64,000 nucleotides of DNA from Apostichopus japonicus (taxonomy: Eukaryota > Echinodermata > Holothuroidea > Aspidochirotida > Stichopodidae): positions 8,653,013 to 8,717,012 of the forward strand of contig NC_092577.1 of the NCBI RefSeq assembly GCF_037975245.1. Reading direction: 5' to 3'. Positions 33,430 to 58,436 of the stretch are shown in pieces. Within the stretch, counting starts at the first letter, position 1; each line of letters opens with the position of its first letter. Both the position numbers and the translations under genes were made by a program. The notes beneath the pieces are model-generated. The model was given only the letters and a program-made list of their open reading frames with translations, searched no databases and had not been told where the DNA came from.

Positions 33430-34900
33430 CTCGTCTAAATGTTTCTAAGGCTTCTGGACCTGATGCAATCCATCCGTATTTGTTGAAGACTTTTCCACAC
33501 TAGTTCTGCGTTCCACTCTCATTGGTTTTTAGTAAATTTATGAATGAAGTTTATGTTCCTAAGGACTAGAGATGTGCTAATGTTACCCCAATTTTCAAGA
33601 AGGGTGATAAGTATAAACCCTGTAATTATAGGCCCGTTAGTCTCACTAGTGTTGTTTGGAAGGTCATGGAGTATATTGTTAAAAAGTCTATGGTCAGTCA
33701 CTTCAGCAGTCAGTCTTTGATCAGAGAGTCTCAACATGGCTTTTGTCAAAAAAGGTCTTGTCTCACTGATATTCTTGAGTCTATGGAAGATGTAACAAGC
33801 TCACTAAATAGGCAGAAGTCTGTAGATGTTGTGTTCCTGGATTTCCAGAAGGCCTTTGATAAAGTTCCCCACCAGTTTCTTTTACTTAGGCTGAAGAGTA
33901 TGGTTGTCAATGGGAATTTACTGTCTTGGATCGAGAATTGGCTTGGTAATAAGAAACAGAGAGTGGTAATTAAAGGCTGTGTGTCTTCTTGACAGGACGT
34001 TAGTAGTGGGGTTCCACAAGTGTCTGTTTTGGGTCCCTTGTTGTTTGTTGCCTATGTAAATGAAATTGACGGAGATATTTTGTGTACAGCTAAGAAGTTT
34101 GCTGATGACACCAAATTGTACCCTGATGTCTCTTCCAAAAGCGATTCTGAGAAGTTTCAAACGGATTTGGATAATGTTTTTCTTGGTCTCGTGGATTGTG
34201 AATGCTTTTTAATTGATAAATGCAAGGTGATGCATATTGGTATAGTAGTAACCAAATGTATACCTACAATCTTACTGGTGTGGAGTTACAGGAGGTCTTT
34301 GTTGAAAGAGACCTAGGTATCAACATTGACTCATCTCTGCAACCTTCTAAACATTGTCTTGAAGCTGCTAAAAGAGGTAATATAGTTGTAGGTATAAGAG
34401 GAAGTTAGTTTTCTGAAAGAGGACATAGTAGTTAGGCTTTATAAGCAGTTGGTTAGGCCTCATCTGGAGTATGTTGTGCAGGCTTGGAACCCATACTTTG
34501 CCAAGGATAAGGGAGTACTCGAAAAGTTCCAGAGGAGGGCTGCTAGGTTGATTAGTTCCTTAAAGAGTGTTCCTTATTATAGGCGGTTACAACTGTTGAA
34601 TCTCACCAAACTGGAGGTTACGTGGTGACTTGATTCAGGTTTTCAAGATTGTGTATGGTTTTGACAATTTATCCTTCACCGACTTGTTCATGTTTGCTAA
34701 TAGTAGTTGTACCAGAGGTCATTGTCTCAAACTCCATAAGTCACAAAGTAGGATTAATATTCGGGTTAATTATTTTTTTCTAATAGGGTTGTGAATGAGT
34801 GGAACGGTTTGCCTGAGAAAGTTGTACTTGCAAGTAGTGGAATGTGTTTAAGAATGCTTTGGACAAGCACTTTAAGCATTGTAATCGGGTATGAATGTTT
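33430..34900 (+). mobile_element. decayed LINE reverse transcriptase (Jockey/CR1 group)
   Basis: Across several frames the plus strand reads KASGPDAIHPYLLK, then CNYRPVSLTSVVWKVMEYIV with a QHGFCQKRSCLTDI block, VVFLDFQKAFDKVPH (motif A), SGVPQ.SVLGPLLFVAYVNEI (motif B), KKFADDTKLY (motif C, ADD catalytic pair kept) and YKQLVRPHLEYVVQAWNPY towards the C-terminus. These are the ordered blocks of a non-LTR reverse transcriptase. Frame changes and stops (for example TGA after KGCVSS near 33990) break it, and the endonuclease half is absent. The family differs from the LINE at 55.4-58.3 kb. Dead copy. Confidence 0.9.
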
Positions 34901-35775: not shown

Positions 35776-37144
35776 GATTTAGGAAAAGTGGTCTTTGTTC
35801 TTTTTTACAGCGTAAGGGAGTCGTGATGCTAATTTGAAGTAACATGATTGTCATTAGGGGAGTGGGTTCTAGTGGATCATCAAGTTGATTGCTCTCCATG
35901 TCCAGGCTCTATCTTGAGTAACTTTTCTTCAAACGTTCAATTTGACATGTAGCGGTAACCGATCGCTATTCAATGAAATGTGTAGGGCAAGGTGAGTGAC
36001 GAGGGAGAGTAGGGTAGGGTGGGGGGGGGGGGCAGTTGCCAACTAAGAATTAATTGCAATGGTCATGGCAGTTGAAATAAGTAACAGTTACAGTAGTTTA
36101 CTTTGTTAGCAGAGTCGCCCAAGATAGAGCCTCTTGGAAGAAGGATTTATCTGGTGAAAAATTTACTGCAACAAAATTACACAAACAAATGGCATTTTCG
36201 GTCTACTCATATAAAGTTGGAGGATCTATGAAATGATAAACTCTTGCTTGTCCTTTGTGGTATATGAATCTTGGTCAAGTTGTGTAATTGCTAAGAGGTT
36301 AAAATATCAATATTGGGAACCAACTTTAAAAACCACTTAGTAAGTAACTTTATACGTTTCTACTAAACGTATATAGTCTCAAACTATCATGATGAAGCCT
36401 AGAAAATATTTTGTTAACAATTCACGAAGTTAGCCTCCGTATACTTATTTCGACTTCTTTGTAAGACCTGATATACAGTAAGGAACTGTTGGTGTCTAAT
36501 GCCAAGTTGCTGTCTCAACAACGGCATTAAATCACAGCTGACGGAAGTTGTGATTAGCAACAAGAACGGCATGAAAAACAGCGGTATTTTTTAGTGGACA
36601 CCGTGGAGCTAATATTTCAGAAAAAAACATGCTATTTCTTTCGGAGGGGGGAGGACAGATGAAAAAAATTGAACGAAGGCCTTCAACTAATCAACAAAGA
36701 AAAAAGACATAAATCTTAACCGAGGAAACTAACAACTTTAATCAAACAACTGTTTGAATTTAAAGAAACAAATTAATTTCGACGAGGGCATGATTTTCGA
36801 AGGTGTTTATTTTAAACAACAACAACACCCTACTTTTACTTGCTGACGACGTCGTCATTTAAAAAAAAAAACATAATGAGAAAACAAACAACAAAAACAA
36901 TTAAACATTAAAAATAACAAAAATGTTCCCTTTCTCATTCCATAATACTCAGGCACTGTCTTCTCATTTAAACCACTCTGTGTAAATACGCTCAGCTGAC
37001 CGTCTTAAGCTTGCGGCCGGATAATAATTCGACCACTTCAGTACCATAGATTGGTCAGTCCAAAGCGGTTCTGCGCATAAAAAATACCGTTATGTTAGGA
37101 ACAAGATTTTAAGAGGGGATCATTAACTTTATATAATTGAGTAT

Positions 37145-37150
37145 TTTATT
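37145..37150 (-). promoter_or_regulatory. candidate poly(A) signal of Kazal gene A
   Basis: Read on the minus strand the hexamer is AATAAA, about 96 bp past the stop codon of the Kazal gene in unit A. In unit B the equivalent stretch reads TTTGTTT on the plus strand, so the canonical hexamer is not conserved there. Inferred use only. Confidence 0.45.
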
Positions 37151-37245
37151 TTACTCTTCCACAATGCCTGCATTATCATAATTTCCTAATCACCCCTAAT
37201 AACTATAACAATTATTCTTATTCGATTTCAAATTGTCTTAAAGAC

Positions 37246-38542
37246 TTAGTCAAAATAGTCATAATATCCAGTGGTTGTATCAATTGTTGAAGAAAACTTA
37301 TTAGTGGTATCATAGTCGACCAGTGGTACAGTTTGCGAGTCGTGTTCCAGTTTCTCTTCCGTCGTTTGCTCTACCACCTCCCTGACTGTACTCGTCTCCT
37401 CACTCGTCCCGTAATTTGCCTCCTCCTCTTCTTCCTGCATCGTTCCCCCTTCCGTCGTTTGCTCTACCACCTCCCTGACTGTACTCGTCTCCGCACTCGT
37501 CCCGTAATTTGCCTCCTCCTCTTCTTCCTGCATCGTTCCCCCTTCCGTCGTTTGCTCTACCACCTCCCTGACTGTACTCGTCTCCTCACTCGTCCCGTAA
37601 TTTGCCTCCTCCTCTTCTTCCTGCATCGTTCCCCCTTCCGTCGTTTGCTCTACCACCTCCCTGACTGTACTCGTCTCCGCACTCGTCCCGTAATTTGCCT
37701 CCTCCTCTTCTTCCTGCATCGTTCCCCCTTCCGTCGTTTGCTCTACCACCTCCCTGACTGTACTCGTCTCCTCACTCGACTCGTAATTTGCCTCCTCTTC
37801 TTCCTGCATCGTTTCCTCTTCCGTCGTTTGCTCTACCACCTCCCTGACTGTACTCGTCTCCTCACTCGTCTCGTAATTTGCCTCCTCATCCTCTTCTTCC
37901 TCGTTCGTTCCCTCTTCGGTCGTTTGCTCCACCACCTCCCTGACTGTACTCGTCTCCTCACTCGTCTCGTAATTTGCCTCCTCCTCTTCTTCCTCCTTCG
38001 TTCCCCCTTCCGTCGTTTGCTCCACCACCTCCCTGACTGTACTCGTCTCCTCACTCATCTCGTAAGTTGCCTCCTCTTCTTCTTCCTCCTTGGTTTCCTC
38101 CGGGTCACTTACCCCTTTTCCTGTCTCCTTCTTTTTTTCATGACCGTCCTTTCGTTCATTGTCCATTTCAACCTCATCTTTATCATCTAACGGGGGGCAT
38201 TTTACCTCCTTGATAACTGCACCGGTAGCAAAATAAAAGTCACATGACGCCAGCTGAAGGGCACAGGAGTTAACAAACTGCTTGCCGTTGCTTCCGCAAG
38301 TCCTAACTACATTACCAAAGCTTTTACAGTCAATCTTGATCCGGGCGCATTTCTCATCGACAACAGCAGATAGGCTGTATGCTGGAGATCAAAATGATAA
38401 TTTATGATATTAACATATCATAAAGTACTGTATATATATATATATATTTGAAATCGTAGTGATTTGAAAAATCCAGAACAGTGAAAAAACTGGTTGTATG
38501 TTCATAGGTTCGAAACCGGTAAGAAAGGTCGTAAATCCACAG

Positions 38543-38597
<55 letters not shown>

Positions 38598-38929
38598 GTG
38601 TTTGCGTGTTTGTGTGTATTTATATATGTATATAACTGAGAGCATTCGCCATATAAACTCTAGACGTCAAGTGTTGCATTCTGAGGCAATTTTACACTTT
38701 TATAAGGTCTATATTCAGATATAACCATAAGGTCGTGCTAAAGACTATTTTTGGATTTTGTTAGATGTTGGAAGGGGGAGGGTGTCGGGAGGAGGGTGGG
38801 GGGGGGGGTATATCCCCGGACCGGATCCTCGCCTCAATTGATGTGTAGTTACTTACCTTTAACACTCTCAATTGTTACGGAAAGCGTTCCAATGAGTAAC
38901 ACAATAAATAGACCAACTCGTGACTTCAT
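37246..38929 (-). CDS. secreted Kazal-domain protein with acidic coding minisatellite, copy A
   Basis: Exon 1 (38857-38929) encodes a signal peptide, MKSRVGLFIVLLIGTLSVTI, and ends in phase 1 at a GTAAGT donor. Exon 2 (37246-38381) follows a TCTCCAG acceptor; total 402 aa. Residues 36-86 are a Kazal-like domain: cysteines 36, 43, 53, 64, 71, 86, with CGSNGKQFVNSC giving the family's C-x10-C-x6-C spacing and Phe for the usual Tyr. Then comes an acidic region with eight 31-residue repeats (EEEEEANYGTSEETSTVREV then VEQTTEGG-TMQ), and a unique tail ending TTGYYDYFD. Kazal domains are serine-protease inhibitors or extracellular modules; the Glu/Thr-rich repeats suggest an O-glycosylated or ion-binding stalk, which is inference. 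The ATG at 38166 is internal. Confidence 0.9.
37350..38100. repeat. coding minisatellite, 93-bp units, 8 copies
   Basis: Units of about 93 bp (31 codons) encode the acidic repeats of the Kazal protein. In the C-terminal half, units alternate AETSTV and EETSTV, so they arose by copying a 186-bp dimer. The N-terminal units differ more (TKEEEEEE, TNEEEEDEE, ETMQEEEE). Unit length is a multiple of three, so copy-number change keeps the frame. Because stops are rare in all frames, the opposite strand also shows a 285-codon frame (37333-38190) that is an artefact. Confidence 0.93.
38556..38594. repeat. (AT)n microsatellite in intron of Kazal gene A
   Basis: Short AT dinucleotide tract in the single intron (38382-38856). 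The matching tract in unit B (45578-45602) is shorter. Confidence 0.9.
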
Positions 38930-39869
38930 TTTGGTGACTGTGAACAAACAATCAAGAGGTAACCTCGAAAATGTTATTTCGATGATTTGAATCACACAGT
39001 AACCCCATTACATAACAAGTATGTACATATCTACGTAGTACGATGGCGCAATATCCTATAGAGGTATAGGTGTCGTATCACAGTTAATTGCTGCCATTGA
39101 CTTCCACACTAAATTCGTCACTTTCCAGAGCCGTTAGAGTATATGTTTATAGACGTTTTAAACTGACATTATGGCCTGCCCACCATATTATAGCTGATAA
39201 CTTGGGCTTTGTGCCATTCATGACAATTTAGACTTTGAGCTAGAAGAACACAAAAGTTAGCATAGTGCTCACAGGACCCATCTGCCGCTGCGGAAACTTA
39301 TTGTTTCAGCAAAGGTTTTGTAAAATGCCTGTAATCATCTTCAATCCTCTAGATTTTTAGATCATTAGTAGCTTTTTTTCAACCCTCTTCACTATATACC
39401 ATAAACAGAATGATGATGACTGAAAAAAAGGATCGTCAGTTGGTAATTAAGGACTATTTTCCGACAATGGTTTAACTTTTCAGGCGGACGTGCACTACTT
39501 AAATTGTTTTATGATTATTTGCATACGTGACTTGTTCTTTTCATTAATACCGTATTTAACTTTAGCGTAATGATATACCAAAGGTATTCTAGGTATTTCC
39601 CAGACTAGGCTCTAACTGTCGTTGAACCTGTCTTGGTTAAATTTTCCTTTCATTAATTTTTTATCCTGTCACCCTTCCCGACAACGCCCCCCCCCCACCC
39701 ACCTCCTTTGATGTCATCTGCCGTTGGAAGTTATAACATTAAACTATTGTTACTGAACATTACCGAAATGTGTTCGGTTTCCCTTGTGGCAAGATTTACA
39801 GAACTGAATAGAGTGTGCAGGTACATGATAACCCAGCGATCAGTCTAGGCATCCTCCGCCACTTTTTGG

Positions 39870-39965
39870 GGGGAGGGGGGAGGATGGAGGGAGGGAGGGA
39901 GGGGTGAATGGATGGATAGGATGAATAGGATGGATAGGATTGATGGATAGGATGGATGGAAAGCA
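39870..39965. repeat. (GGAT/GGGA)n simple repeat
   Basis: A purine-rich run of GGGAGG passing into GGATGGATAGGATGAATAGG-like repeats. It falls in the portion of unit A that is absent from unit B. Confidence 0.85.
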
Positions 39966-40204
39966 CATTTATACAGCCCAGCTTCACAGATAAGGGAGCG
40001 CATTCAAAAGCTTTGGACCACTTCGAGCGAAAGTTCTAGTACTATATTTTGTGTGGACACTCGAGATGAAAAGGAGTACTTTGTCAGACGAGAAACCACG
40101 ATAAGTTCTTTTAATTAATCAGTTGCATTATTATAAGTAAAAGGCACGGGCCATACGCGGAACACCGGATAACCTGTGAATCAAAATGTCATCTTGATCA
40201 TATC

Positions 40205-40271
40205 TTTATCTATATAGATATCTATCTTATATATATATCTATATCTATATATATATATACATAAACATATA

Positions 40272-40303
<32 letters not shown>

Positions 40304-40362
40304 CATATATATATATAAATAAATACATACATATATAAATATATACATATATAAATATATCA
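40205..40362. repeat. (AT)n-rich microsatellite, unit A
   Basis: AT/ATAC-rich simple repeat just before the TCAGTTACCTGGTCCCGTGG block. The same tract follows the deletion join in unit B (about 46687-46752) and lies near 51003-51088 in unit C. A second AT tract is at 40899-40945. Confidence 0.92.
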
Positions 40363-40905
40363 GTTACCTGGTCCCGTGGACCGGTCAACATGTTTAGAGT
40401 TTCATTCACGAATAGTCACGAGGAATAATAAAATATACAATTTTGTCATTATGGTGCTAATTGTTAATGAACTAACTGAACAATGAGTCATTTTGTTGAA
40501 AATTGCTATAATATATTCTAACAAATTAAAATATCGCATCATTTCGACGGTCGGCCTTAACGTTTTTATATTCTTTAAAACACTTATTCTGCATTGCTTG
40601 CCAAGCTTGACGTGAAAAATCAAGTTGTTTTCGTTTTGAATATCGTTTAGAAAGTTTATGAGATTCCATCAAAATATGATGAATAAGTTATTAATCAAAA
40701 AAAATTGTGTAATACTCACATTAAGATATTAATACCGAAAATATAGCGAACAAACGTATCTCTAGAATCTATAATAGATACCCGTCTTCCACCAAGTTGC
40801 TTTGCAGAGACAAACGGTGACCTAATTTCCAATATCTCACGGTGGCATTCACCTGATCACGCAGCAAGTGGAATGTGAACCTCTGGTAACAAATGAAAGG
40901 ATATA

Positions 40906-40950
<45 letters not shown>

Positions 40951-41889
40951 GCAGTGGTAACAAATAGACTGAATAGTTCCAATTATTGTCACATGGCATT
41001 TAATGATGATTAGTTGCTAAAAAATAGCTGATTTTGCAGGAGAATAAATTTTCACACTTGACCTGGGCAAAAATTCAAGCAACCTTGGGTGAAAAAGTAT
41101 ACAAAACTATTTGCCAGTTGAATAAACAGGAAGCTTGATTTTATCACCCATGAGTCATATATAGGTCAGCTGATGAAATAACTTGATTATATGTTGGCAC
41201 CGATGTTAAATTGATCCCTGTTTGCAGATTTTATTTTATTGGATTGATGATGGAGCACATACCATGCTCCACTGTTTGCTTTCATGTATAGCAGTGCTTC
41301 AAATGTCACAACCTTACTTGTGAGTTCTTAGTTGCAACCATTTGTGCACACATTTACTCTGCGTGACTAAGTCACTTGCAGGTATTATAATGTTACAGGT
41401 ATTCTTTCCCTATGGACTAAACGTTATGCCGTTTGCATTGCATTCTTGTTTATGCCAAAAGCTCCAAAAGCTATATTTGCATGTGGAGTGAGGTTGGTCT
41501 TTCATGGGTAACAACATTCCAATTATTTATATAAACACTAAATGCAATGTATGTGTCTTTGTTGGCTTTGTAGATCATCTAATTTGCTCATTGAAAACTG
41601 TTCAGTTCTATGGGCGGCCATTACCGCGGTTATGGGCATACATTTTTATGTAAATTATGTAAAAAATCAAAAATTGTTAACCAAAACCCTGTCAACACAT
41701 TCATATATTCAATGAAAGCGGGCAGAACCAAAGACTCAATAGGTGCTAGGGTAACAACTGCAACATGTTCAGGATATGCTGTTTTAGCACTTATCTAAGA
41801 ACTTAACGTATTTTATGGCAATTTACATTCGAGATGATCACTGTATTCGTACCGACCCTTTTCTTAGTTCAGTGGCACCGATAACGGTT

Positions 41890-42150
41890 CTAGCAAATCG
41901 TGTTCACCAAGTTCCGATGAACGCACTTCCTTATTGCATAGGAAGATTGCTCTAGAGATGATGTCGTTGAAGCCTCTGCATCGAACTCTTTACGTGGCTG
42001 CCGTTGGAAAAGTAACGTGTCACAAAACCTGACATAATATTGGGAGAGTAGCAAATCCAAAGGGACACTCATTCGGTAGGAATGACAGTAAGCTCCCTCT
42101 TCGGGCTTTATTACGCCTTGTAACCTAGATATCCATTAAGGGGACATATA
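41890..42150 (-). other. conserved-looking small minus-strand frame in unit A (unproven)
   Basis: On the minus strand a frame reads RLQGVIKPEEGAYCHSYRMS and then VPLDLLLS to a stop at 41890, including QRQPRKEFDAEASTTSSLEQ. Unit B keeps the frame (48307-48489 plus the upstream part), which argues against pure noise. However, the differences between the two copies are mostly amino-acid changing (V/I, Q/K, Y/D, I/K, V/M), so there is no sign of purifying selection. It could be a decayed terminal exon captured in the duplication. No family recognised. Confidence 0.25.
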
Positions 42151-44829
42151 CACCTTCATCTAACAAAAATCATAATAGGTATATAACTGACAGTCAGAAA
42201 AGACCATGAAAAGCTATTTCTTTTGTTGAGCAAAAAGAAAGTAACAGTTTCTATCGTTTTGAGGACATACCAAATATCGAGCATTGGGTGATGACAGTCT
42301 ACAGTATTTGTTACGCATAAACCATTATTTTCATATGATGGAATTGTGTTGCAGAAACGTTTACATTTGCTGGTTTTATTGTTCAGTATTATTTAACTTT
42401 ATCAATTAAAGGCTACAGTTCTTCTTTTTTGTAGGAAAATGACCATCCAGGAGGTATTGTATTGTTATATAGAATAAGTTCAGCTCTGTACTGGTTACCT
42501 TGTAAGAGAAAACATGTATACCAAGCTACAATACAATGCTCATAAAGAAAACTGGTGAAACATTTACACACAGGTATGGGATGGACAAAGGTAAACATTG
42601 TCTGGTTATGAACTAGTTATTTGCAGTTGATCTGTCATAACGCATTACAGACTATTATGGTCAGATAGTATTGGGTTAATAAATTTTCACCATTGACTGA
42701 GGCATATATGAACACATATCTTGTTTATGATAGCTTCATTATTTGTTTTACCTACCATGTTCTCATTTTGCGGATATTATGGTAACAGAAATTTTTACAT
42801 GTTATTTAAGCCTGTGGAAGTATTCAACGGAAAGGAGACCGCTCTCTGTTGCACAACAACATTGATATAAATTTTTGTTTTATTAGGGGCTAAGATAAGA
42901 TGCTTGCAAGGGGAGTGGTGTGCCCTCCCTATTACTTTTTTTCATAATGTAGGGTACATATTTATGTCAACATTTTATATGTAAACTTCATCAAGTTTTG
43001 TTTTAACAATTTCAGGCAATAAAATGCGGTTTTCTTAAAACAAAAAGAAGAATTTTTCTTTATTTTGATGTGATACATAAGTTGTGTTTTAAGGGAAAAC
43101 CGCAGTTTTTTTTTGCAAAATAGGGTAAGGTAGAGTTTACCCTTATTTTTAGGATGTAACGTCTGTCGCCGTAAATTTTGAGGTAAATTCAATTTTACCT
43201 CTGAAAGTGGTGAAATGTTTTCTTCTTATTAAGGAGATGTTAAGTTTCCCTTCACGAAACACTCTGTGTGGGAAATCCGAGATTACACCACAAATGGTTG
43301 GCAGCCTGGTAACACTCTTGCGCTGTTTGAGATAAGGTGGTCTTCTTTTTTTTTTTACAGTTTAAGGCAGTCGTGTTACTAACTTTAAGTAACATGATTG
43401 TCATTATCAAACGGTTACAGTCTTGGTGTATAAAGGGAGTGGGCTTGAGTGGATTATCAAGTTGATTGCTGTTCATGTCCAGACTCTATCTTGAGTAAAT
43501 TATCTTCAAACGTTCAATTGGACATGTTGCGGTAACCAATCGCTATTCAAGGAAATGTGTAGGCGAGGTGAGTGAGGGGGAGAGAGGGGAGGGGGGAGTT
43601 GCCGACTAAGAAATTATTGCAATGATCATGACAGTAGACATAACTAACGTTTTCAGTAGTTAACTTTGTAAGCAGAGTCGCCCAAGATAGAGCCTCTTGG
43701 AGTAAGGAAGAAGGATTTATCTGGTGACAAATTTACAACATCAAAATTAAATTTAACAAATGGCATTTTCGGTCTGCTCATATAGAGTTGGAGAATCCAT
43801 GAAATGATAAACCCTTGCTTGTCCTTTGGGGTAAATGAATCTTGGTCAAGTGGTGTAATTGCTGAGAGGTTAGAATATCAATAGTGGGAACCAACTTTAA
43901 AAACACTTAGAAAGGTTGTATAACTTGTGTATACGGTTGCACAACTTTATCTGTGTCTACTATACGTATATCGTCTCAAACTATCATGATTAAGCCTAGA
44001 AAATATTCCGTTAACATTTCACGAAGTTAGCCTCCGCAAAAAAATGTCAACTTCTTTGCAAGACCTGATATACATTAAGGAACTGTTGGTGTCTCATGTC
44101 AAGTTGCTGTATCAACAACGGCATTAAATCACAGCTGAAGTTGTGATTAGCAACAAGAACGGCATGAAAAACAACGGTGTTTGTAGTAGACACCGTGGAG
44201 CTAATATTTCAGAAAAAACATGTTATTTTTTCGCAGGAGGGGGAGGACAGATAATTAATCAACAAAGAAAAAAGACATAAATCTTATCCGAGGAAACTAA
44301 CAACTGTAATCAAACAACTATTTGAATTTAAAGAAACAACTTAATTTTGACGAGGGATTGATTTTCAACGAAGTGTTCATTTCAAACAACAACAACAACA
44401 CCCTACTTCTACTTGCTGACGACGTCGTCATTTAAAAAAAAACTTAATGAGAAAACAAACAACAAAAACAAGTTTACATTAAACAATAACAGAAAGATTC
44501 CCTTTTCTCATTACATAATACTCAGGCACTGTCTTCTCATTTAAACCACTCTGTGTAAATACTTTGTGCGCCCAGCTAGACCGTCTTAAGCAGACGGGAA
44601 AATAATCGACCACTTCAATACCATAGATTGGTCAGTCGAAAGCGGGTTTCTGCGCATAAAAAAATATTGCAATGTTAGGAACAAGAGTTTAAGATGGGGT
44701 TCTTAACTATATATAACTGAGTATATATTTGTTTACTCTTCCGCAATACCAGTATTATCCACATTTCCTAATCACCCCTTAAACAACTATGTCAATTATT
44801 CTTATTTGATTATAAATTATCTTAAAGAC

Positions 44830-45566
44830 TTAGTAATAATAGTCATTATATCCAGTGGCTGTTTCACTTGTTGGGGAGAACTTATTATTGGTATCATAGT
44901 CGACCAATGATACAGTTTGCGAGTCGTCTTCCAGTTTCTCTCCCGTCGTTTGCTCCGAAAAATCCCTGACTGTACTCGTCTCCTCAGTCGTCTCGTAATT
45001 TGCCTCCTCCTCCTCTTCTTCCTCCTTCGTTCCCCCTTCCGTCGTTTGCTCCACCACCTCCCTGACTGTACTCGTCTGCTCACTCGTCTCGTAATTTGCC
45101 TCCTCTTCTTCTTCCTCCTTGGTTTCCTCCGGGTCACTTACCCCTTTTCCTGGCTCCTTCTTTTTTTCATTACCGTCCTTTCGTTCATTGTCCATTTCAA
45201 CCTCATATTTATCATCTAACGGGGGGCATTTTACCTCCTTGATAACTGCACCGGTAGCAAAATAAAAGTCACATGATGCCAGCTGAAGGGCACAGGAGTT
45301 AACAAACTGCTTGCCGTTGCTTCCGCAAGTCCTAACTACATTACCAAAGCTTTTGCAGTCAATCTTGATCCGGGCGCATTTCTCATCGACAACAGCGGAT
45401 AGGCTGTATGCTGGAGATCAAAATGATAATTTATGATATTAACATATCATAAAGTACTGTATATATATATAATTGAAATCGTAGTGATTTGAAAAATCCA
45501 GAACAGTGAAAAACTGGTTGTATGTTCATAGGTTCGAAACCGGTAAGAAAGGTCGTAAATCCACAG

Positions 45567-45607
<41 letters not shown>

Positions 45608-45928
45608 GTGTTTGTGTGTATTTATATATGTATATAACTGAGAGCATTCGCCATATAAACTCTAGACGTCAAGTGTTGCATTCTGAGGCAATTTTACACT
45701 TTTATAAGGTCTATATTCAGATATAACCATAAGGTCGTGCTAAAGACTATTTTTGGATTTTGTTAGATGTTGGAAGGGGGAGGGTGTCGGGAGGAGGGGA
45801 GAGGGGGTATACCCCCGGACCGGATCCTCGCCTCAATTGATGTGTAGTTACTTACCTTTAACACACTCAATTGTTACGGAAAGCGTTCCAATGAGTAACA
45901 CCATAAATAGACCAACTCGTGACTTCAT
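44830..45928 (-). CDS. secreted Kazal-domain protein, copy B (two acidic repeats)
   Basis: Paralogue of the gene in unit A: exon 1 at 45856-45928 (signal peptide; LFMVLL for LFIVLL, and ECVK for ESVK at its end) and exon 2 at 44830-45410, total 217 aa with intact frame and splice sites. The Kazal domain is essentially unchanged, but only two acidic repeats are present, the second diverged (RDFSEQTTGEKLEDDSQTV against REVVEQTTEEKLEHDSQTV in A). The C-terminus ends YNDYYY instead of YYDYFD. The extra Cys near the end of the signal peptide is odd. Either both are functional with different stalk lengths or B is drifting; the open frame favours function. Confidence 0.88.
45578..45602. repeat. (AT)n tract in intron of Kazal gene B
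   Basis: Short AT dinucleotide tract, homologous to the longer one at 38556-38594 in unit A. Another AT tract of unit B is at 47289-47330. Confidence 0.9.
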
Positions 45929-46686
45929 TTTGGTGACTGTGAACAAAACAATCAAGAGGTAACCTCGAAAATGTTATTTCGATGATTTGAATCACACAGT
46001 AACCCCATTACATAACAAGTATGTACATATCTACGTAGTACGATGGCGCAATATCGTATAGAGGTATAGGTGTCGTATCACAGTTTATTGCTGTCATTGA
46101 CTTCCACACTAAATTCGTCACGTCCCAGAGCCGTTAGAGTATATGTTTATAGACGTTTTAAACTGACATTATGGCCTGACCACCATATTATAGCTGATAA
46201 CTTGGGCTTTGTGCCATTCATGACAATTTAGACTTTGAGCTAGAAGAACACAAAGGTTAGCATAGTGCTCACAGGACCCATCTGCCGCTGCGGAAACTTA
46301 TTGTTTCACCAAAGGTTTTGTAAAATGCCTGTAATCATCTTCAATCCTCTAGATTTTTAGATCATTAGTAGCTTTTTTTCAACCCTCTTCACTATATACC
46401 ATAAACAGAATGATGATGACTGAAAAAAAGGATCGTCAGTTGGTAATTAAGGACTATTTTCCGACAATAGTTTAACTTTTCAGGCGGACGTGCACTACTT
46501 AAATTGTTTTATGATTATTTGCATACGTGACTTGTTCTTTTCATTAATACCGTATTTAACTTTAGCGTAATGATATACCAAAGGTATTCTAGGTATTTCC
46601 CAGACTAGGCTCTAACTGTCGTTGAACCTGTCTTGGTTGAGTTTTCCTTTAATTAATTTTTTATCTTGTCACCCTTCCCGACAACG

Positions 46687-46723
<37 letters not shown>

Positions 46724-47287
46724 TACATATATATATACATATATAAATATATCAGTTACCTGGTCCCGTGGACCGGTCAACATGTTTAGAGTTTCTTTCA
46801 CGAATAGTCGCGAGAATAATAAAATATACAATTTTGTCATTATGGTGCTAATTGTTAATGAACTAACTGCACAATGAGTCATTTTGTTGAAAATTGCTAC
46901 AATATATTCTAACAAATTAAAATATCGCATCATTTCGACGGTCGGCCTTAACGTTTTTATATTCTTTAAAACACTTATTCTGCATTGCTTGCCAAGCTTG
47001 ACGTGAAAAATCAAGTTGTCTTTGTTTTGAATATCGTTTAGAAAGTTTATGAGATTCCATCAAAATATGATGAATAAGTTATGAATAAAAAAAATTGTGT
47101 AATACTCACATTAAGATATAAATACCGAAAATATGGCGAACAAACGTATCTCTAGAATCTATAATAGATACCCCTTTTCCACTAAGTTGCTTTGCAGAGA
47201 CAAACGGTGACTAATTTCCAATATCTCACGGTGGCATTCACCTGATCACGCAGCAAGTGGAATGTGAACCTCTGGTAACAAATGAAA

Positions 47288-47333
<46 letters not shown>

Positions 47334-50252
47334 GACTGAATAGTTCCAATTATTGTCACATGGCATTTAATGATGAATAGTTGCTAAAAAATAGCTGATT
47401 TTGCAGGAGAATAAATTTTCACACTTGACCTGGGCAAAAATTCAAGCAACCTTGGGTAAAAAAGTATACAAAACTATTTGCCAGTTGAATAAAGAGGAAG
47501 CTTGATTTTATCACCCATGAGTCATCATATATAGGTCAGCTGATGAAATCATTTGATAATATGTTGGCACCGAGGTTAAATTGATCCCTGTTTGCAGATT
47601 TTAATGGATTGATGATGGAGCACATACCATGCTCCACTGTTTGCTTTCATGTATAGCAGTGCTTCAAATGTCACAACCTTACTTGTGAGTTCTTAGTTGC
47701 AACCATTTGTGCACACATTTACTCTGCGTGACTAAGTCACTTGCAAGTATTATAATGTTACAGGTATTCTTCCCCTATGGACTAAACGTTATGCCGTTTG
47801 CATTGCATTTTTGTTTATGCCAAAAGCTCCAAAAGCTATATTTGCATGGGGAGTGAGGTTGGTCTTTCATGGGTAACAACATTCCACTTATTTATGTAAA
47901 CACTAAATGCAATGTTTGTGTCTCAGTTGGCTTTGTAGATCATCTAATTTGCTCATTGAAAACTGTTCAGTTCTATGGGCGGCCATTACCGCGGTTATGG
48001 GCATACATTTTTATGTAAATTATGTAAAAAATCAAAAATTGTTAACCAAAACCCTGTCAACACATTCATATATTCAATGAAAGCGGGCAGAACCAAAGAC
48101 TCAATAGGTGCTAGGGTAACAACTGCAACATGTTCAGGATATGCTGTTTTAGCACTTATCTATGAACCAATAGAACACATCTCATGATTAGTGATTTGGT
48201 AAACAAGCTATCTAAGAACTTAACGTACTTTATGGCATCTTAGATTCGGGATGATCACTGTACTCGTACCGACCCTTTTCTTAGTTCAGTGGCACCGACA
48301 ACGGTTCTAGCAAATCGTGTTCATCAAGTTCCGATGAACACACTTCCTTTTTGCATAGGAAGATTGCTCTAGAGATGATGTCGTTGAAGCCTCTGCATCG
48401 AACTCTTTACGTGGCTGCCGTTGGAAAAGTAACGTGTCACAAAACCTGATATAATCTTTGGAGAGTAGCAAATCCAAAGGGATACTCATTCGGTAGGAAT
48501 GAGAGTAAGCTCCCTCTTCGGGCTTTATTACGCCGTGTAACCTAGATATCCATTAAGGGGACAGATACACCTCCATCTAACAACAATCATAATAGGTATA
48601 TAGCTGAAAGTCAGAAAAGACCATGAAAAGCTATTTCTGTTGTTGAGCAAAAAGAAAGTAACAGTTTCTATCGTTTTGAGGACATACCAAATATCGAGCA
48701 TTGGGTAATGACAGTCTACAGTATTTGTTACGCATAAACCATTATTTTCATATGATGGTATTGTGTTGGCAGAAACGTTTACATTTGCTGGTGTTATCGT
48801 TCAGTATTATTTAACTTTTTCAATTAAAGGCTACAGTCCTTTTTTTGTAGGACAATGGTCATCCAGGAGGTATTATATTGTTACATGGAATAAGTTCAGC
48901 TCTGGCTTGGTAACCTTGTAAGAGAAAACATGTATTCCAAGCTACAATACAATGCTCAGGTATGGGGTGGACAAAGGTAAACATGGTTATGAAATAGTTA
49001 TTTGCAGTTGATCTGTCATAACGCCTTACAGACTGTAATGGTCAGTTAGTATTGGGTTAAGCAATTTTCACCATTGACTGAGGCAGATATAAACATATAT
49101 GTTGTTTATGATAGCTTACATTATTTGTTTTACCTGCAAAATAGTGTAAGGTAGAGTTTACCCTACTTTTTAGGATGTAACTTCTGTTGCCGCAAATTTT
49201 GAGGTAACTTCAATTTTACCTCTGAGAGTGGTGAAATGTTTTCGTCTGTTTAAGGAGATGTTAATTTTCCTTTCATGGGAGGAAACCCCCTTGATACCCT
49301 GTGTGAGAAATCTGAGATTACACCACAAAGTGATGGCAGCCTGGTTACACTCATGCACTGTTTGAGGAAATTTTTTTTTTTTTTTTTTTTACAGTGTAAG
49401 GGAATCGTGATGCTAACTTGAAGTAACATGATTGTCATTATTATATGGTTACAATCTCGTTGTATAAAGGAAGTGGGTTTAAGTGGATCATCAATTTGAT
49501 TGCTGTTCATGTCCAGACTCTAACTAGTAAATTTTCTTCAAACGCTCAGTTGGACATGTTGCGGTAACCATTCGCTATTCAAGGAAATGTGTAGGGCGAG
49601 GTGAATGAGGGGGAGGGAGGGTGGGGTGGATTTGCCGACTAAGAACTTATTGCAATGGTCATGGCAGTAGACATAAGTAACGTTAACAGTAGTTTACTTT
49701 GTAAGCAGAGTCGCCCAAGATAGAGCCTCTTGGAGTAAGGAAGAAGGATTTATCTGGTGACAAATTTACTGCAACAAAATTACACAAACAAATTACATTT
49801 TTGGTCTACTCATATAAAGTTGGAGGATCCATAAAATGATAAACTCTAGCTTGTCTTTTTTGGTAAATGAATCTTGGTCAAGTGATGTAATTGCTGAGAG
49901 GTTAGAATCTCAATAGTGGACAAATTTTAAAACCACTTAGTAAGGTTGTATTACTTGTGTATATATATATAGTTGCACAATTTTATATGTTTCTACTACA
50001 TGTATATAGTCTCAAACTATCATGATTAAGCCTAGAAAATATTCCGTTAACATTTCACGAAGTTAGCCTCCGTATTATAATTTCAATTTCTTTGCAAGAC
50101 CTGATATACAGTATGGTTCTGAACGAAGGCCTTCAACTAAATAATAAAGAACAAAAGGCATAACATCTTAACTGAGGAAAGTAACAACTGTAATCAAACA
50201 ACTGCTTGAGTTTCATAGGTTCGAAACCGGTAAGGAAGGTCGTAAATCCACA

Positions 50253-50254
<2 letters not shown>

Positions 50255-50329
<75 letters not shown>

Positions 50330-50345
50330 AATATATATATATATA
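50255..50345. repeat. (AT)n microsatellite, unit C
   Basis: Nearly pure AT dinucleotides at the deletion join in unit C. Similar tracts follow at 50795-50840, 51005-51044 and 51622-51650. Confidence 0.92.
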
Positions 50346-50479
50346 AACAATACACTGATAACAATAAGTATTTATTTAATTGTGTGTAAGAGTTGAGTAA
50401 GAGTAAGAGTTTTTAGATCATTAATAGTTTTTTTTTTCAACCCTCTTCACTATCCACCATGAACAGAATAATGATGACT

Positions 50480-50790
50480 TGAAAAAATTGTCGCTATTGA
50501 ACCGAAGCTTGAACTTAGTGCTGGTTTCGCCAATATAGGTGACCTAGGGGCACTTGCAAAAATAAAGAAGGTAGATGACACCGGCTGAGTCGCAACCAAA
50601 TCTACCGGGTCTCAGGGTGGTGCCTGAGGCCCGGTGGAGGAAATCGGGCGGGGGGGGGTGTTCGAGGTGTGTACACACCAAGCATCTCGGTTTGTTACAA
50701 GTGATGTTTCCACTATCAGGCTCATCACTGGGTCGGGCGAGGTTAGTTCGAACCGTCACTGATATGATGTTACGTGGTTGTCTATAGATA
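50480..50790 (-). mobile_element. Penelope-like element fragment (Cys-rich linker plus GIY-YIG start)
   Basis: The minus strand encodes RPSDEPDSGNITCNKPRCLV, then CTHLEHP, LRPGRFGCDSAGVIYLLYFC, KCP and, after a stop, VTYIGETSTKFKLRFN. The C..KPRC..C pattern, then a Cys before VIYLLYC.KC and YIGET, is the ordered signature of the region joining reverse transcriptase to the GIY-YIG endonuclease in Penelope-like retroelements (Y..15 or so residues..YIGET is the GIY-YIG core). The in-frame TAG at about 50541-50543 and the short length show that it is a dead fragment. It replaces part of the unit C sequence after the Kazal gene was lost. Confidence 0.75.
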
Positions 50791-51000
50791 AAGATATATA
50801 TATTTATATATAGATATATATATATATATATATATATAGAGTTGGTTGGTTTGCGTCTATCTTGGCACAGAGTGCTCTATGTCCAGTGGACAGAACGGAA
50901 TATATGTTGATACTAGTTGAGACTAGAGTTGTCTGACGATCGCTAAACGCATGAAACTCCAAGTTACAACTACTAGTGTTCCACTAGTCTCAACTAGTAT

Positions 51001-51051
<51 letters not shown>

Positions 51052-51654
51052 GGTATACATATAGATAAATATATATATATATATATACCAGTTACATGGT
51101 CCCGTGGACCGGTCAACATGTTTGGAGTTTCTTTCACAAATAGTCACAAGGAATAATAAAATATAAAATGTTGTCATTATGGTGTTAAGGTACTTACTGA
51201 ACAATGAATCAATTTGTTGGAAATTGCTACAACATATTCTAACAAATTAAGAGATCGTATCATTTCGACGGTCGGCCTTAACGTTTTGATATTTTTAAAT
51301 ATACTTATTCTGCATTGCTTGCCAAGCTTGAAGTGAAAAATCAAGTTAACTTCGTTTTGAATATCAATGAGGAAGTTTACCAGATTCAATCAAAATATGA
51401 TGAATTAGTTATGAATAGAAAACATTGTGTAATACTCACATTTAGATATTAATACCGAAACTATAGCGAACAAACTTATCTCTGGAATCTCCAATAGATA
51501 CCCCTTTTCCAACAAGTTGCTTTGCAGAGACAAACGTTGACTTAAATTCCAAAATCTCACTGTGGCATTCACCTGTTCACGCAGCGAAGTGGAATGTGAA
51601 CCTATGGTAACAAATGAATGGATATATATATATATATATATATATATTGAATAA

Positions 51655-54640: not shown

Positions 54641-55418
54641 CATGCGATGCAGTGGTAATTAATAGACTGAATAGTTCCAATTATTGTTATATCGTATTGT
54701 ATATTGATTAGTTGCTAAATATAGCTGATTGTGCAGGAAAATGAATTTTGACACTTGACGTGGGAAAATGTCAAGCAACAATGGTTGAAAAAGTATACAA
54801 AGCTATTGGCCAGTTAAATAAACAGGACGCTTGATTTTATCACCCATGAGTCATCATATATAGGTCAGCTGATGAAATCACTTGATAATATGTTGGCACC
54901 GATGTTAAATTGGTCCCTGTTTGCAGAGGTTTTTTAGTGGAGTGATGATGGAGCACATATTAAGCATTCCGTTGTTTGCTTTCATGTATAGCAGTGCTTC
55001 AAATGTCACAACCTTACTTGTCCGTTCTTAGTTGCAACCATCAGTGCACAAATTTACTTTGCGTGACTAAGTCACTTGCAAGAATTGTTATAGGTATTCT
55101 TTCCATATGGACAAAATTTATGCCGTTTGCAAAGCTTTCTTGCTTATGCCAAAAGCTCCAAAGGCTATATTTGCATGTGGAGTGAGTTTGGTCTTTCATG
55201 GGTAACAATATTCCACTTATTTATGTAAACACTAAATGTATTGTATGTGTCTCAGTTGGCTTTGCAGATCATCTAATTCGCTCTTTCAAAACTGTTCAGT
55301 TCTATGGGCGGACATTACCCCCTAGCTAAATTATGTAAAATATCAGAGAGTGTTTACCAACACCCTGTCAACACATTAATATATTTGATGCAAGTGGGCA
55401 GAACCAATGACTCAATAT

Positions 55419-58258
55419 TTCATTTCATTTCATTTATTTGTTTTTTTCTCAATATACGGTACATTGTATGTCATACAAACGTTTACAGATATGAAATTGA
55501 GTATAAAGAGAAAGGAAGTGATCTAAAAACCTGAAAGGCTTATCGAGTAGAGCCACTCCCTAAAGTAGGAAAATAATTAAGTTATCAGTGTTAACGATAT
55601 AAACAAACTTTGTATATGATCATGATGATTAAGTAGATAATTCCAGCAAGTGTTTGCCCGATAACGTATGCTCTGTTTACCCAGGTGACTATGGGGAAAA
55701 AGTCTATGTATGTGACCAGCCTGTCTTGTATTATAATCATGGATTTCCTTATTAACAGTGAATAAATTTTTACATGTGGGCGGATTATACCTATTAATAG
55801 AGCGATAAGCGAATGTAGCAAGATGAACTTTCACAAGGTCCGGTAATTTCAGTAGCTTAAGTGAGGCAAATAATTTACTAGTATGATCGTTATAGTCGGC
55901 AGAAGATATATGTCGAATAGCCCTTTTTTGAAGTACAAAAAGTTTCTTAATGTTATAAGCAGCCGTGCCAGACCAAACTGTAATGCAATAAGTAAGGTGA
56001 GGATAAATTAAAGTAAAATATAAAGAACGAAGAATATGTTTTGGTAAGTAGTGCTTCAATTTGGAAAGAATCCCAACGCCTCGAGAAATATTTGTTGATA
56101 TTGTATTTATGTGATTACGCCATGTCAGACCAGAATCAATAGTTACCCCTAGAAAAGTGGTAAAACACACTTTTTTTAGACTACTACCATGCATCTTTAT
56201 GTCAGACAGAATATTCCTATTCCTACCTTCATTGAAAACAACATATTTTGTCTTACCTGCATTTAAAGAAAGTTTGTTAGCTGAAAACCAAGCATGAAAT
56301 TCATCAAGCACATGACAAATTCTAGCCCTCATTTCCACAGGATCCAAGCCAGAGAAAAAAATATAAGTATCATCAGCGAATGATATGATAGTACAATTAT
56401 CTGACACATGACAAATATCATTTACATATATTATAAAAAGCAAGGGCCCCAATATAGATCCTTGTGGAACCCCACAAACAACATTCATGCAATCAGAATC
56501 CGTATGAAGACAATTTGTAAATTGTTTTCTGTTTGATAAATAGCTTCTAATCCAGTCTAGTCCTGTGCCTCTTATGCCATAATGTGACAATTTCATAAAC
56601 AAAATACGGTGATCAATTGTATCAAACGCTTTGGACAAGTCCAAGAATACACCGACGGAAATCCTTTTATTATCTATGGCATCATACAATACCTCCAAGG
56701 CCTCAGTCAAAGCAAGTTCGGTTGAGTGTCCTGGCCGATACCCATATTGACTTTTGAACATAATATCATGTTTACTGATAAAATTATAAATACGATTATG
56801 AACTATTCTTTCAAAGATTTTAGAGAAGCCTGTTAGTGCAGAAACTGGGCGATAATTACCTATAACATCGTGATCCCCTTCTTTGTAAACAGGGATAACT
56901 TTCGCAATTTTTATATGATCTGGGACAGTACCAGTTGCTAAGGATAAATTTATATTGTGAGTAAGAGGGTGAACAACGTAATGTAACACCTTTCTTAGTA
57001 TTGAAGGCTTTATGCCATCGAAGCCGGCAGATTTATCTGGTTTCAAACAAGCAAGTGCAACTTTAAATACTTCACTCTCATTTGCAGGAGACATATAAAG
57101 GGTTGAAGGATTTGAATTTCTTAAGTAATGATTTGGATTAGTGTCACTATGAATATCTGACGCTAAGGTGGGGTTTTTCAACATCTTGCGATAGAGTTTA
57201 TTTTTACGTTTGATTGATTTTAAAATACCAGTCGTTATCCAAGGATGACGCTTTTTACGACGCTTTGAGTTACTGATATAAATATATGGAAAGCATTCAT
57301 CATAAATATTCTGAAAAACTGTAATGAAATTGTAATAAGCTACGTTCACGTCCTCAATAGAACATATGAAATTCCAGTCGGTATTATGTATTAAATTATT
57401 AAAATACGTAGTGTTCTTGTCGGAATAGTTCCTAGTGTAGTAGCCAGAATCAGATTTACTCTGCTCTACTGAAGTTTGAATGAAAACAGGGAAGTGGTCA
57501 CTTATATTCGTTAGTAGTATGCCAGGCGTGATATCAGTAATATTGTTGGTGAATATATTGTCAATAAGTGAGGACACGGTTCCACTTACTCGAGTAGGCT
57601 TGGAAATTGTAGGGAAAAAATTGTTTGAAAACACAGTGTTTATGAAGTCAGAAGTTCCATTTTTTAGTAAATCAATATTAAAATCCCCCATGATATAACC
57701 ATGTTTGTTCTCACTAGATATTAAATTGAGTATAATATTTATATATTCATTGAATGTAGATGTCAAACCCTGTGGAGGTCTATAGACTACTCCAACGATT
57801 ATATTATTCTTATTCATTGCTATTTCTATGAAAATGCTTTCTATCGCCTCATTGAAAAAAGATATGTCAGTCTTTTTTACAAACGTATAATTATTCGATA
57901 TAAAAAGACCAACACCACCACCTCTCTTGCTATCCCTGTGATTTTCTATAAAAGTATATTGATCTATTTGTAACAAAGGTGATATTTGGTCACTTAACCA
58001 CGTCTCACTGAAGCCAATTATTGAGAACTCATGATTAAGAAGGGAAAGAAAGTCAATTATTGAGTTGAAGTTTTTGTTTAGGCTACGGCTGTTTGCATGA
58101 AACAGAGAGAATACATGAGGTTTACCAGTAAGTTTATTGAAGGAACCAATGTCAAAGTAGCGACAAAGACCTACAGGAACTTGTGAGTTTAGGTTTTGTG
58201 AGTCATAAAAATCATTATTCATGAACTGCGAACTTGGTCCATGTAGTGCCTCCAATCA
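55419..58258 (-). mobile_element. young LINE insertion, Jockey/CR1 group, ~2.84 kb
   Basis: The insertion interrupts unit C inside a segment that is continuous in units A and B (ACTCAATAGGTGCTAGGGTA there; ACTCAATAT | element | AATATGTGCCAGGG here). A 5-bp AATAT occurs at both edges (55414-55418 and 58259-58263), a plausible target duplication. The 3' end, on the left because the element is on the minus strand, has a short (GAAAT)n-type tail. The 5' edge sits just ahead of the reading frame, so the element is probably 5'-truncated, yet its single frame is unbroken, which implies recent insertion. Confidence 0.9.
55577..58255 (-). CDS. LINE ORF2: AP-type endonuclease and reverse transcriptase
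   Basis: An intact frame of about 890 codons. Residues about 48-270 form an exonuclease-endonuclease-phosphatase type endonuclease: FSLFHANSRSLNKNF, FSETWL, RGGGVGLFI, GVVYRPP, GDFNIDL and SDHFPVF are its ordered motifs, with the terminal SDH intact. RT spans about 440-720: NYRPVSALTGFSKIFERI, FLDLSKAFDTIDH, GVPQGSILGPLLFIIYVNDI and SFADDTYIFF (catalytic ADD), then LYFTLIYPHLTYCITVW. Together they nick the target and copy the element RNA. The first codon of the open stretch is TTG; the first ATG (MNNDFYDS) is residue 12, so the native N-terminus may be cut off. No ORF1 is present. Confidence 0.95.
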   Translation of the reverse strand: MEALHGPSSQFMNNDFYDSQNLNSQVPVGLCRYFDIGSFNKLTGKPHVFSLFHANSRSLNKNFNSIIDFLSLLNHEFSIIGFSETWLSDQISPLLQIDQYTFIENHRDSKRGGGVGLFISNNYTFVKKTDISFFNEAIESIFIEIAMNKNNIIVGVVYRPPQGLTSTFNEYINIILNLISSENKHGYIMGDFNIDLLKNGTSDFINTVFSNNFFPTISKPTRVSGTVSSLIDNIFTNNITDITPGILLTNISDHFPVFIQTSVEQSKSDSGYYTRNYSDKNTTYFNNLIHNTDWNFICSIEDVNVAYYNFITVFQNIYDECFPYIYISNSKRRKKRHPWITTGILKSIKRKNKLYRKMLKNPTLASDIHSDTNPNHYLRNSNPSTLYMSPANESEVFKVALACLKPDKSAGFDGIKPSILRKVLHYVVHPLTHNINLSLATGTVPDHIKIAKVIPVYKEGDHDVIGNYRPVSALTGFSKIFERIVHNRIYNFISKHDIMFKSQYGYRPGHSTELALTEALEVLYDAIDNKRISVGVFLDLSKAFDTIDHRILFMKLSHYGIRGTGLDWIRSYLSNRKQFTNCLHTDSDCMNVVCGVPQGSILGPLLFIIYVNDICHVSDNCTIISFADDTYIFFSGLDPVEMRARICHVLDEFHAWFSANKLSLNAGKTKYVVFNEGRNRNILSDIKMHGSSLKKVCFTTFLGVTIDSGLTWRNHINTISTNISRGVGILSKLKHYLPKHILRSLYFTLIYPHLTYCITVWSGTAAYNIKKLFVLQKRAIRHISSADYNDHTSKLFASLKLLKLPDLVKVHLATFAYRSINRYNPPTCKNLFTVNKEIHDYNTRQAGHIHRLFPHSHLGKQSIRYRANTCWNYLLNHHDHIQSLFISLTLIT

Positions 58259-58436
58259 AATATGTGCCAGGGTAACAGCTGCAACATGTTGAGGATGTGC
58301 AGTTTTAGCATTCAGTTATAAACCAATAGAACACATCTCATGATTAGTGATTTGGTAAACAAGCTATCCAAGAACTTAACATATTTTATGGCATGTTAGA
58401 TTTGGGATGATCACTGTATTCGTACACTGTTAAAAA

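Follow-up and report, generated by a model that had tools for sequence, protein, structure and literature searches.

The window, a 64,000-nucleotide stretch of the sea cucumber Apostichopus japonicus genome (NC_092577.1, positions 8,653,013 to 8,717,012), contains two adjacent genes, A and B, which sit in tandem segmental duplicates of 6–7 kb (Table 1). The range 37246–45928 extends from the stop codon of gene A to the start codon of gene B. Both sequence-predicted models have an open frame from start to stop and intact splice sites, with predicted products of 402 (A) and 217 (B) amino acids. Exon 1 of gene A comprises 24 codons and the first base of codon 25; the first codon of its Kazal-like domain is completed across the splice site. 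Each gene appears to encode a secreted product, in which a signal peptide, called by hydropathy, precedes a Kazal-like head, a linker, Glu/Thr-rich repeats and, 3′ of these, an acidic Tyr-rich tail end. The original prediction of secreted Kazal-like tandem paralogues agrees with this leader, with the six-cysteine head and with the tandem duplicates. An AATAAA motif is present 3′ of gene A and lost in B, and no canonical poly(A) signal was found within 1030 bp after gene B. An Rfam scan of the window gave 0 matches at the gathering score.

Table 1 Features of the A, B and C units in the window
Feature	Position	Strand	Basis or remarks
Gene A exon 1, signal peptide	38857..38929	(-)	ATG, hydrophobic leader, GTAAGT donor
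Gene A intron, phase 1, 475 bp, TA microsatellite inside	38382..38856	(-)	GTAAGT...CTCCAG
Gene A exon 2: Kazal-like head, linker, repeat array, tail, stop	37246..38381	(-)	
Gene A Kazal-like domain and flanks, 68 residues as searched	38179..38382	(-)	tblastn coordinates, Pfam
Gene A coding minisatellite, 7.9 copies of 93 bp, 94% matches	37356..38087	(-)	Tandem Repeats Finder
Gene B exon 1, signal peptide	45856..45928	(-)	ATG, hydrophobic leader, donor
Gene B intron, phase 1, 445 bp	45411..45855	(-)	
Gene B exon 2: Kazal-like head, linker, two units, tail, stop	44830..45410	(-)	
Gene B coding minisatellite, 1.9 copies of 96 bp, 87% matches	44943..45124	(-)	Tandem Repeats Finder
Support interval of the A/B divergence step	37378..37982 (A coordinates)	.	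Inside array
Duplicated unit A	35785..42753	.	Self-BLAST
Duplicated unit B	43334..49135	.	Self-BLAST; match to unit C starts at 43114
Unit C remnants, third unit	49135..51647	.	Self-BLAST, tblastn; without exon 1 or exon 2
Unit C pieces	49135-50116, 50120-50213, 50196-50346, 50410-50487, 51005-51647		

The head has six cysteines in Kazal order (C-x6-C-x9-C-x10-C-x6-C-x14-C, residues 36, 43, 53, 64, 71 and 86), and this domain is identical in protein between A and B. A seventh cysteine of gene B, residue 22, lies inside the leader. Assignment of the head to the Kazal family is borderline. With Kazal_2 (PF07648), the whole proteins score 21.1 (A) and 22.3 bits (B), just below the cut-off of 22.8, and the domain alone, run for gene A as a 70-residue version, scores 23.6 bits, just above it; the check first proposed, a Kazal HMM score below threshold with unpaired cysteines, gives a split answer. 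The Kazal_2 alignment spans only profile positions 15–33 of 48. Scores with Kazal_1 (PF00050) are 13 (A), 14.1 (B) and 16.6 (domain alone) against a cut-off of 21. When the domain was shuffled ten times with the cysteines fixed, none of the ten sequences matched a Kazal model. Single-sequence AlphaFold2 models have a mean pLDDT of 42.3 (193 aa) and 45.6 (68 aa), a confidence too low for cysteine pairing.

The Kazal module of follistatin-like 3 (FSTL3, PDB entry 3b4v) matches the head without gaps over C-x9-C-x10-C-x6-C, with four cysteines in common and an E value of 0.0014 for the whole sequence. In the follistatin/SPARC family, a FOLN hairpin precedes the Kazal module or an EF-hand domain follows it; neither was listed by Pfam for A or B up to an E value of 1. 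Unlike FSTL3, A and B have a single domain and an acidic repeat tail, with no FOLN hairpin in front. Classical Kazal inhibitors have seven residues between Cys2 and Cys3. The stretch here has nine, the same as in FSTL3, which speaks against the protease-inhibitor-like head that had been proposed. A tblastn search of the window for further Kazal copies returned the two genes and one chance-level match (E 5.9). No relative was confirmed among 104 viral-contig and 97 genome-contig pattern matches, from collections without animal genomes and hence uninformative about orthologues.

The repeat units, about 93 bp long in gene A, number eight there and two in gene B, as originally predicted. The array is present as described, but its full units are 30–32 residues long instead of a fixed 31, and the last unit in each gene is a 14-residue stub continuing into the tail. 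The fourfold longer stalk claimed for A holds approximately for repeat number, but not for the stretch after Cys6, which measures 316 residues in A and 131 in B (2.4-fold). Repeat change does preserve the frame, the indels among full units being of 3 or 6 bases. Within gene A, units A4 and A6 are identical in DNA, as are A5 and A7. The predicted net charge is -85 for A versus -25 for B, the predicted pI is 4.05 and 4.32, respectively, and S-x-E sites after residue 91 number nine in A and none in B. Constraint is evident in neither tail nor linker: between the two tails pN is 0.132 and pS 0.138, and the linkers differ by five non-synonymous and no synonymous changes. The 133-bp tail is free of indels, a lack that does not reach significance (P 0.16). 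An opposite-strand open frame over the gene A array (37291-38190) was set aside as a by-product, open because the unit is stop-free and its length a multiple of 3.

The divergence between A and B changes abruptly along the units. It is about 2–3% from the repeats back through the head, the intron and the upstream DNA, whereas beginning with the last repeat it is about 12%, in non-coding DNA as well. For non-coding DNA, with A positions above 41775 left out, 163/1337 sites differ on the 3′ side (12.2%) versus 56/2653 in the intron and upstream DNA (2.1%; Fisher p 3e-37). With the positions above A:41775 included, where windows differ by 2–9%, the change-point rates are 12.4% and 2.9%, and the chi-square is 181, the highest value among 2000 permutations being 29.4. 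Running against a clean step are those windows and one within the otherwise similar part that reaches 7.3%. The support interval of the step lies inside the array, where the placement of a long alignment gap is arbitrary.

The duplicates had been described as keeping the leader, the Kazal domain and the splice sites. The intron, however, differs at 6/445 sites and the Kazal-coding portion of the exon at 3/202, so that the two are equally alike (p 1.0), and recent homogenisation therefore appears to account for the A/B likeness, which taken by itself is no proof of selection. Across the Kazal stretch (codons 25–91) there are three synonymous and no non-synonymous differences, versus none and seven in the remaining pre-array coding sequence (Fisher p 0.008); the head pattern gives a hint of constraint as well.

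Unit C provides an outside reference. In the two long stretches compared it is 10–12% from both other units: 10.5% from A and 10.5% from B upstream, and 11.9% from A and 10.7% from B in the far 3′ flank. All three units are about 10–13% apart in the long stretches compared, save for the 5′ part of A and B (about 2–3%). On either side the distance of unit C from A is thus much the same as from B, and the 5′ side is not simply slow-mutating. Informative sites upstream support the A+B grouping over its alternatives by 51:6:6, and those of the far 3′ flank are distributed 29:40:48. Closer to the genes, about 100 bp depart from a clean star, B being further from C (25.8%) than from A (12.4%; sites 14:9:1). 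At the intron and promoter (71 and 90 columns), unit C is 20–21% divergent, an overestimate because the columns include ragged edges. An origin of all three units in one unequal crossover was rejected; it predicts about 2% between B and C in the 3′ flank, where 10.7% is observed.

We give about an even chance to a reading in which the locus is a small tandem array of two open-frame copies and a gene-less remnant, with the 5′ parts re-homogenised and the product an extracellular polyanion. Gene conversion or unequal crossing-over would have restored the likeness between the 5′ parts of A and B, up to a boundary in the coding minisatellite, and the gene A array would have grown later through copying of a two-unit (186 bp) block. 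The least certain step is the action of the product as an extracellular polyanion. By analogy, the disulphide head may dock to the matrix or to another protein, and the acidic tail, possibly phosphorylated or glycosylated, may bind Ca2+ or mineral, or swell as mucus. The two loci would supply one head with tails differing in length and charge, and our best guess at function is a secreted polyanionic matrix or mucus protein with a tail variable in both respects. The minisatellite may even act as a stop line for gene conversion, such that the head and promoter are renewed, the sequence past the repeats stays private and the array sets tail length, but this we think doubtful. Against the main reading, a single boundary at a single locus is at hand, and with the array taking up 732 bp of unit A (6969 bp), about one in ten boundaries placed at random would lie inside it.

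The step could also be an artefact of assembly, the 5′ halves being alleles of one locus joined via the repeats to different 3′ halves. It sits in a repeat, where assemblers fail; a divergence of 2–3% could be allelic, as in a very heterozygous animal; and the published Sp185/333 locus is an assembly hybrid according to the available sections of its report (PMC5103432). Such a mis-join is nonetheless unlikely: the window contains no N, the distance of unit C from both other units in the long stretches shows real tandem duplication here, and the upstream parts are separated by a 608-column gap and many smaller indels, although alleles can differ likewise. It is quite improbable that one or both copies are non-functional and the array a drifting minisatellite in a decaying duplicate. 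The neutral-looking tail (pN about equal to pS), the lost AATAAA of B and the lost exons of unit C would fit such decay; the open frames, the intact splice sites, the 3- or 6-base indels of the full units and a head without amino-acid change do not.

Selection in place of recent exchange, keeping the heads alike as the tails drift, is highly improbable. The contrast between the head and the other pre-array coding sequence favours it, but the head is no more alike than the non-coding DNA of the intron and upstream, which contradicts selection as the sole cause; constraint on the head in addition to recent exchange is likely, judging from the substitution pattern. As for function, the Kazal-like core with its motif CGSNGKQFVNSC and the second PDB match, the inhibitor infestin (E 0.0039), would suggest a defensive inhibitor of serine proteases whose acidic tail serves as a carrier or an exosite ligand. 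A Kazal-type gene, which may or may not be related to A and B, is listed as up after LPS in a sea cucumber (PMC2702171). Set against the Cys2–Cys3 spacing, the single domain and the restricted profile match, an inhibitory role seems a poor prospect.

Should the boundary prove real, nature would offer here a compact example of a gene pair in which the head is homogenised and the tail is not, and the switch sits in a repeat that also alters protein length and charge. It would then offer a testable model for repeat-tail diversification beside a constant head, in matrix and immune proteins. Before likeness between tandem paralogues is taken for constraint, it should be compared with that of the introns.

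The SpTransformer (Sp185/333) immune genes of sea urchin are not known to encode a Kazal domain, and the comparison with A and B concerns gene layout. As in A and B, there are two exons, the second of which holds the variable mosaic, along with tandem segmental duplications, short tandem repeats surrounding the genes and a gene-less partial unit, as far as the sections available describe them (PMC5103432). Its authors speculate that repeats limit conversion; the proposed exchange-stopping repeats flank the genes there, whereas in A and B the boundary would lie in a coding repeat (PMC5103432). In the SPANX-N genes of primates, too, the unit number of an in-frame coding minisatellite varies, paralogues included (SPANX-N2 has seven units in human and two in chimpanzee), but the unit is of 39 bp, the protein is a sperm protein and, in the accessible text, none of the variants is attributed to gene conversion (PMC1831492), unlike what we infer for A and B.

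Among literature titles and abstract openings, we noticed no case of a coding minisatellite rich in Glu/Thr joined to a Kazal head, which is no claim of absence from print, and no mention of Kazal was found in the available main text of PMC11925454. Phosphodontin of the sea urchin tooth is likewise secreted and acidic with a tandem array of short Glu-rich units (thirty-five Ser-rich 11-12-mers), but no Kazal domain is described in the parts of the report at hand, and mass spectrometry showed phosphorylation (PMC2830187). In A and B phosphorylation would be possible at most (S-x-E sites 9 versus 0). The architecture, originally thought to be without named relatives, has them in sea urchin tooth-matrix proteins (Glean3:17588, 17589, 17590 and 22278), which, in the sections available, combine a signal peptide, one or two Kazal domains and acidic low-complexity blocks at a global pI of 4–5, one of them with 15 DEED-like repeats (PMC2614417). 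A and B share this combination, with a leader called by hydropathy, a borderline Kazal domain and pI values of 4.05 and 4.32. The tooth-matrix group has 17–21% Pro and 14–25% Ala in Ala/Pro-rich blocks (PMC2614417), whereas A and B have 4/402 and 5/217 Pro residues and a tail in which Glu/Thr units of about 93 bp recur regularly.

Two adjacent Kazal-like genes, A and B, are encoded on the minus strand and are built alike. Exon 1 of both encodes a hydrophobic leader (hydropathy of 2.58 and 2.38 for the best 13 residues, from residue 8; no later stretch exceeds 1.19), and exon 2 encodes, in order, a six-cysteine domain (the head), a charged linker, a Glu/Thr array and an acidic, Tyr-rich end (the tail). 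The precursors have a predicted net charge of -85 (A) and -25 (B) and a pI of 4.05 and 4.32. A canonical poly(A) signal motif (AATAAA/ATTAAA) is located 96 bases past the stop codon of gene A; these motifs are absent from the 1030 bp (43800-44829) past the gene B stop.

Features of the locus and of the remaining window (window positions)
Feature	Position or length	Strand	Remarks
Unit A	35785-42753		self-BLAST
Unit B	43334-49135		self-BLAST; in tandem with unit A
Unit C, pieces	between 49135 and 51647		self-BLAST
Gene A exon 1	38929-38857	minus	
Gene A intron	475 bp	minus	phase 1
Gene A exon 2	38381-37246	minus	predicted product 402 aa
Gene B exon 1	45928-45856	minus	
Gene B intron	445 bp	minus	phase 1
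Gene B exon 2	45410-44830	minus	predicted product 217 aa
36-bp repeat	5029-6203		33 copies; more than one frame open
NACHT open frame	10081-11655	minus	524 residues; NACHT 62.5 bits (cut-off 26.7); like NLR-type immune receptor
Open frame	19616-19903	plus	two weak, sub-threshold bZIP hits (20.6 and 18.5 bits); resembles CREBL2
Higher-order array	21583-22424		complex; periods e.g. 40, 119, 130, 152 bp
Second reverse transcriptase	33570-34316	plus	open frames; RVT_1 63.8 bits on the first (33570-33989)
LINE-type open frame	55577-58255	minus	892 residues; endonuclease/phosphatase and reverse transcriptase domains

The array is a coding minisatellite, in which Tandem Repeats Finder detects a 93-bp unit 7.9 times in A and a 96-bp unit 1.9 times in B, and together with the gene models this bears out the coordinates and repeat counts of the original prediction. 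The stalk, which had been put at about four times longer in A, differs less in length, by 2.4-fold past the sixth Kazal cysteine (316 versus 131 residues). Full repeat units comprise 30-32 residues and differ by indels of 3 or 6 bases, and the last unit is a stub in both genes. Within gene A, unit 4 exactly matches unit 6 and unit 5 exactly matches unit 7, with one difference between units 4 and 5, which points to recent copying of a 186-bp two-unit block.

The genes lie in tandem segmental duplicates, units A and B, accompanied by the gene-less remnant unit C, which matches the 3' flank, intron and upstream DNA, and neither exon. Global alignment in windows of 150 aligned bases reveals two regimes of A/B divergence. 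From the array through the head, intron and exon 1 and upstream to A:41775 (window coordinates of unit A), 20 of 21 windows are 0-4.0% different and one 7.3%, with 2.0-9.3% in the last six upstream windows, to A:42712. The last repeat unit, C-terminal coding end and 3' flank (10 windows, A:35854-37402) differ by 5.3-16.7%. At non-coding sites, omitting A positions above 41775, there are 56/2653 differences on the 5' side versus 163/1337 on the 3' side (Fisher p 3e-37); rates of 2.9% and 12.4% result once those positions are counted in. The best change-point is A:37378 with them (chi-square 181, where 2000 permutations gave 29.4 at most) and A:37409 without them (support interval 37378-37982, within the array), the exact site of the long gap within the array being the aligner's choice. 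A simple-repeat-rich stretch of some 600 bp (39687-40294) is present upstream of A and absent upstream of B. Flanks of the LINE-type frame (54646-55417 and 58259-58425) recur, with the frame missing between them, at 40948-41852 and 47329-48269 in the upstream DNA of the two gene units (self-BLAST), probably as an internally deleted element predating the A/B duplication.

Unit C allows the possible origins of this pattern to be compared. Its upstream DNA differs by 10.5% from A and from B alike, and its far 3' flank by 11.9% from A and by 10.7% from B, which contradicts slower mutation on the 5' side. One unequal crossover creating all three units predicts a B-C difference of about 2% in the 3' flank, against the 10.7% observed. 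Site groupings join A with B at 51 upstream sites (6 and 6 for the two alternatives) and at 29 sites in the far 3' flank (40 and 48 for the others). A short stretch nearer the genes fits poorly (groupings 14:9:1; the B-C difference is 25.8% and the A-C difference 17.5%). On the simplest account, the three units would have been of similar age to begin with, and the 5' part of A or B would then have been overwritten with its counterpart from the other copy, as far as the repeats. A mis-assembly, in which two alleles of one 5' half were joined through the repeats to two different 3' halves, is an unlikely source, albeit one with a precedent in the published sea urchin genome, where the Sp185/333 locus is described as such a hybrid (PMC5103432). 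The likeness of the heads is best read, from the sequence comparisons, as recent homogenisation. The array occupies about one tenth of the unit, so chance could have placed the boundary inside it.

The intron is as alike as the Kazal part of the exon (6/445 and 3/202 A/B differences, p 1.0), so that the likeness of the heads is in itself no evidence of selection. Constraint on the head is hinted at by three synonymous and no non-synonymous differences in its 67 codons, versus none and seven in the remaining coding sequence before the array (Fisher p 0.008). The diverged tail appears to evolve as if neutral (pN 0.132, pS 0.138), with zero indels in 133 bp where 1.8 are expected (P 0.16).

The head is, by sequence, Kazal-like with follistatin spacing (C-x6-C-x9-C-x10-C-x6-C-x14-C). 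Whole proteins score slightly below the Pfam Kazal_2 cut-off of 22.8 bits (A 21.1, B 22.3) and the isolated 70-residue domain reaches 23.6 bits, the match spanning profile positions 15-33 of 48; none of ten shuffles of this domain with cysteines fixed gave a Kazal match. The best PDB match is follistatin-like 3 (E 0.0014), with four cysteines aligned gap-free and identical x9, x10 and x6 intervals, followed among other entries by the inhibitor infestin (E 0.0039); a query 14 residues longer reverses the ranking (infestin 0.0047, follistatin-like 3 0.034). In classical Kazal inhibitors Cys2 and Cys3 are generally separated by seven residues, which makes an inhibitory loop doubtful here. AlphaFold2 models from single sequences were of low confidence (mean pLDDT 42.3 and 45.6).

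A leader, a Kazal-like head and a long polyanion that is probably disordered suggest that the product probably belongs to extracellular matrix, mineral or mucus. The same combination of leader, Kazal domain and acidic blocks appears in a described set of five tooth-matrix proteins from sea urchin, four with one or two Kazal domains and acidic low-complexity blocks and all five with a signal sequence and a pI of 4-5 (PMC2614417). The observation of tandem paralogues stands, and its interpretation is supported in part: the head is Kazal-like, and the architecture, which had been thought to lack named relatives, has precedents in these proteins. Skeletal proteomes of brittle star and sea star also include Kazal proteins (PMC4336488, PMC5460417), and phosphodontin is a secreted, phosphorylated acidic repeat protein of tooth (PMC2830187); past residue 91, gene A encodes nine S-x-E candidate sites and gene B none. 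A defence role seems improbable, although a sea cucumber Kazal-type gene, with no known link to genes A and B, is listed as up after LPS (PMC2702171).

The boundary of homogenisation placed in a coding minisatellite, seen once, is the new element here. Unit number is known to change in the coding minisatellite of SPANX-N (PMC1831492), and the SpTransformer loci, for which repeat-limited conversion is put forward as speculation, resemble the A/B locus in gene layout, with a gene-less partial unit in both (PMC5103432).
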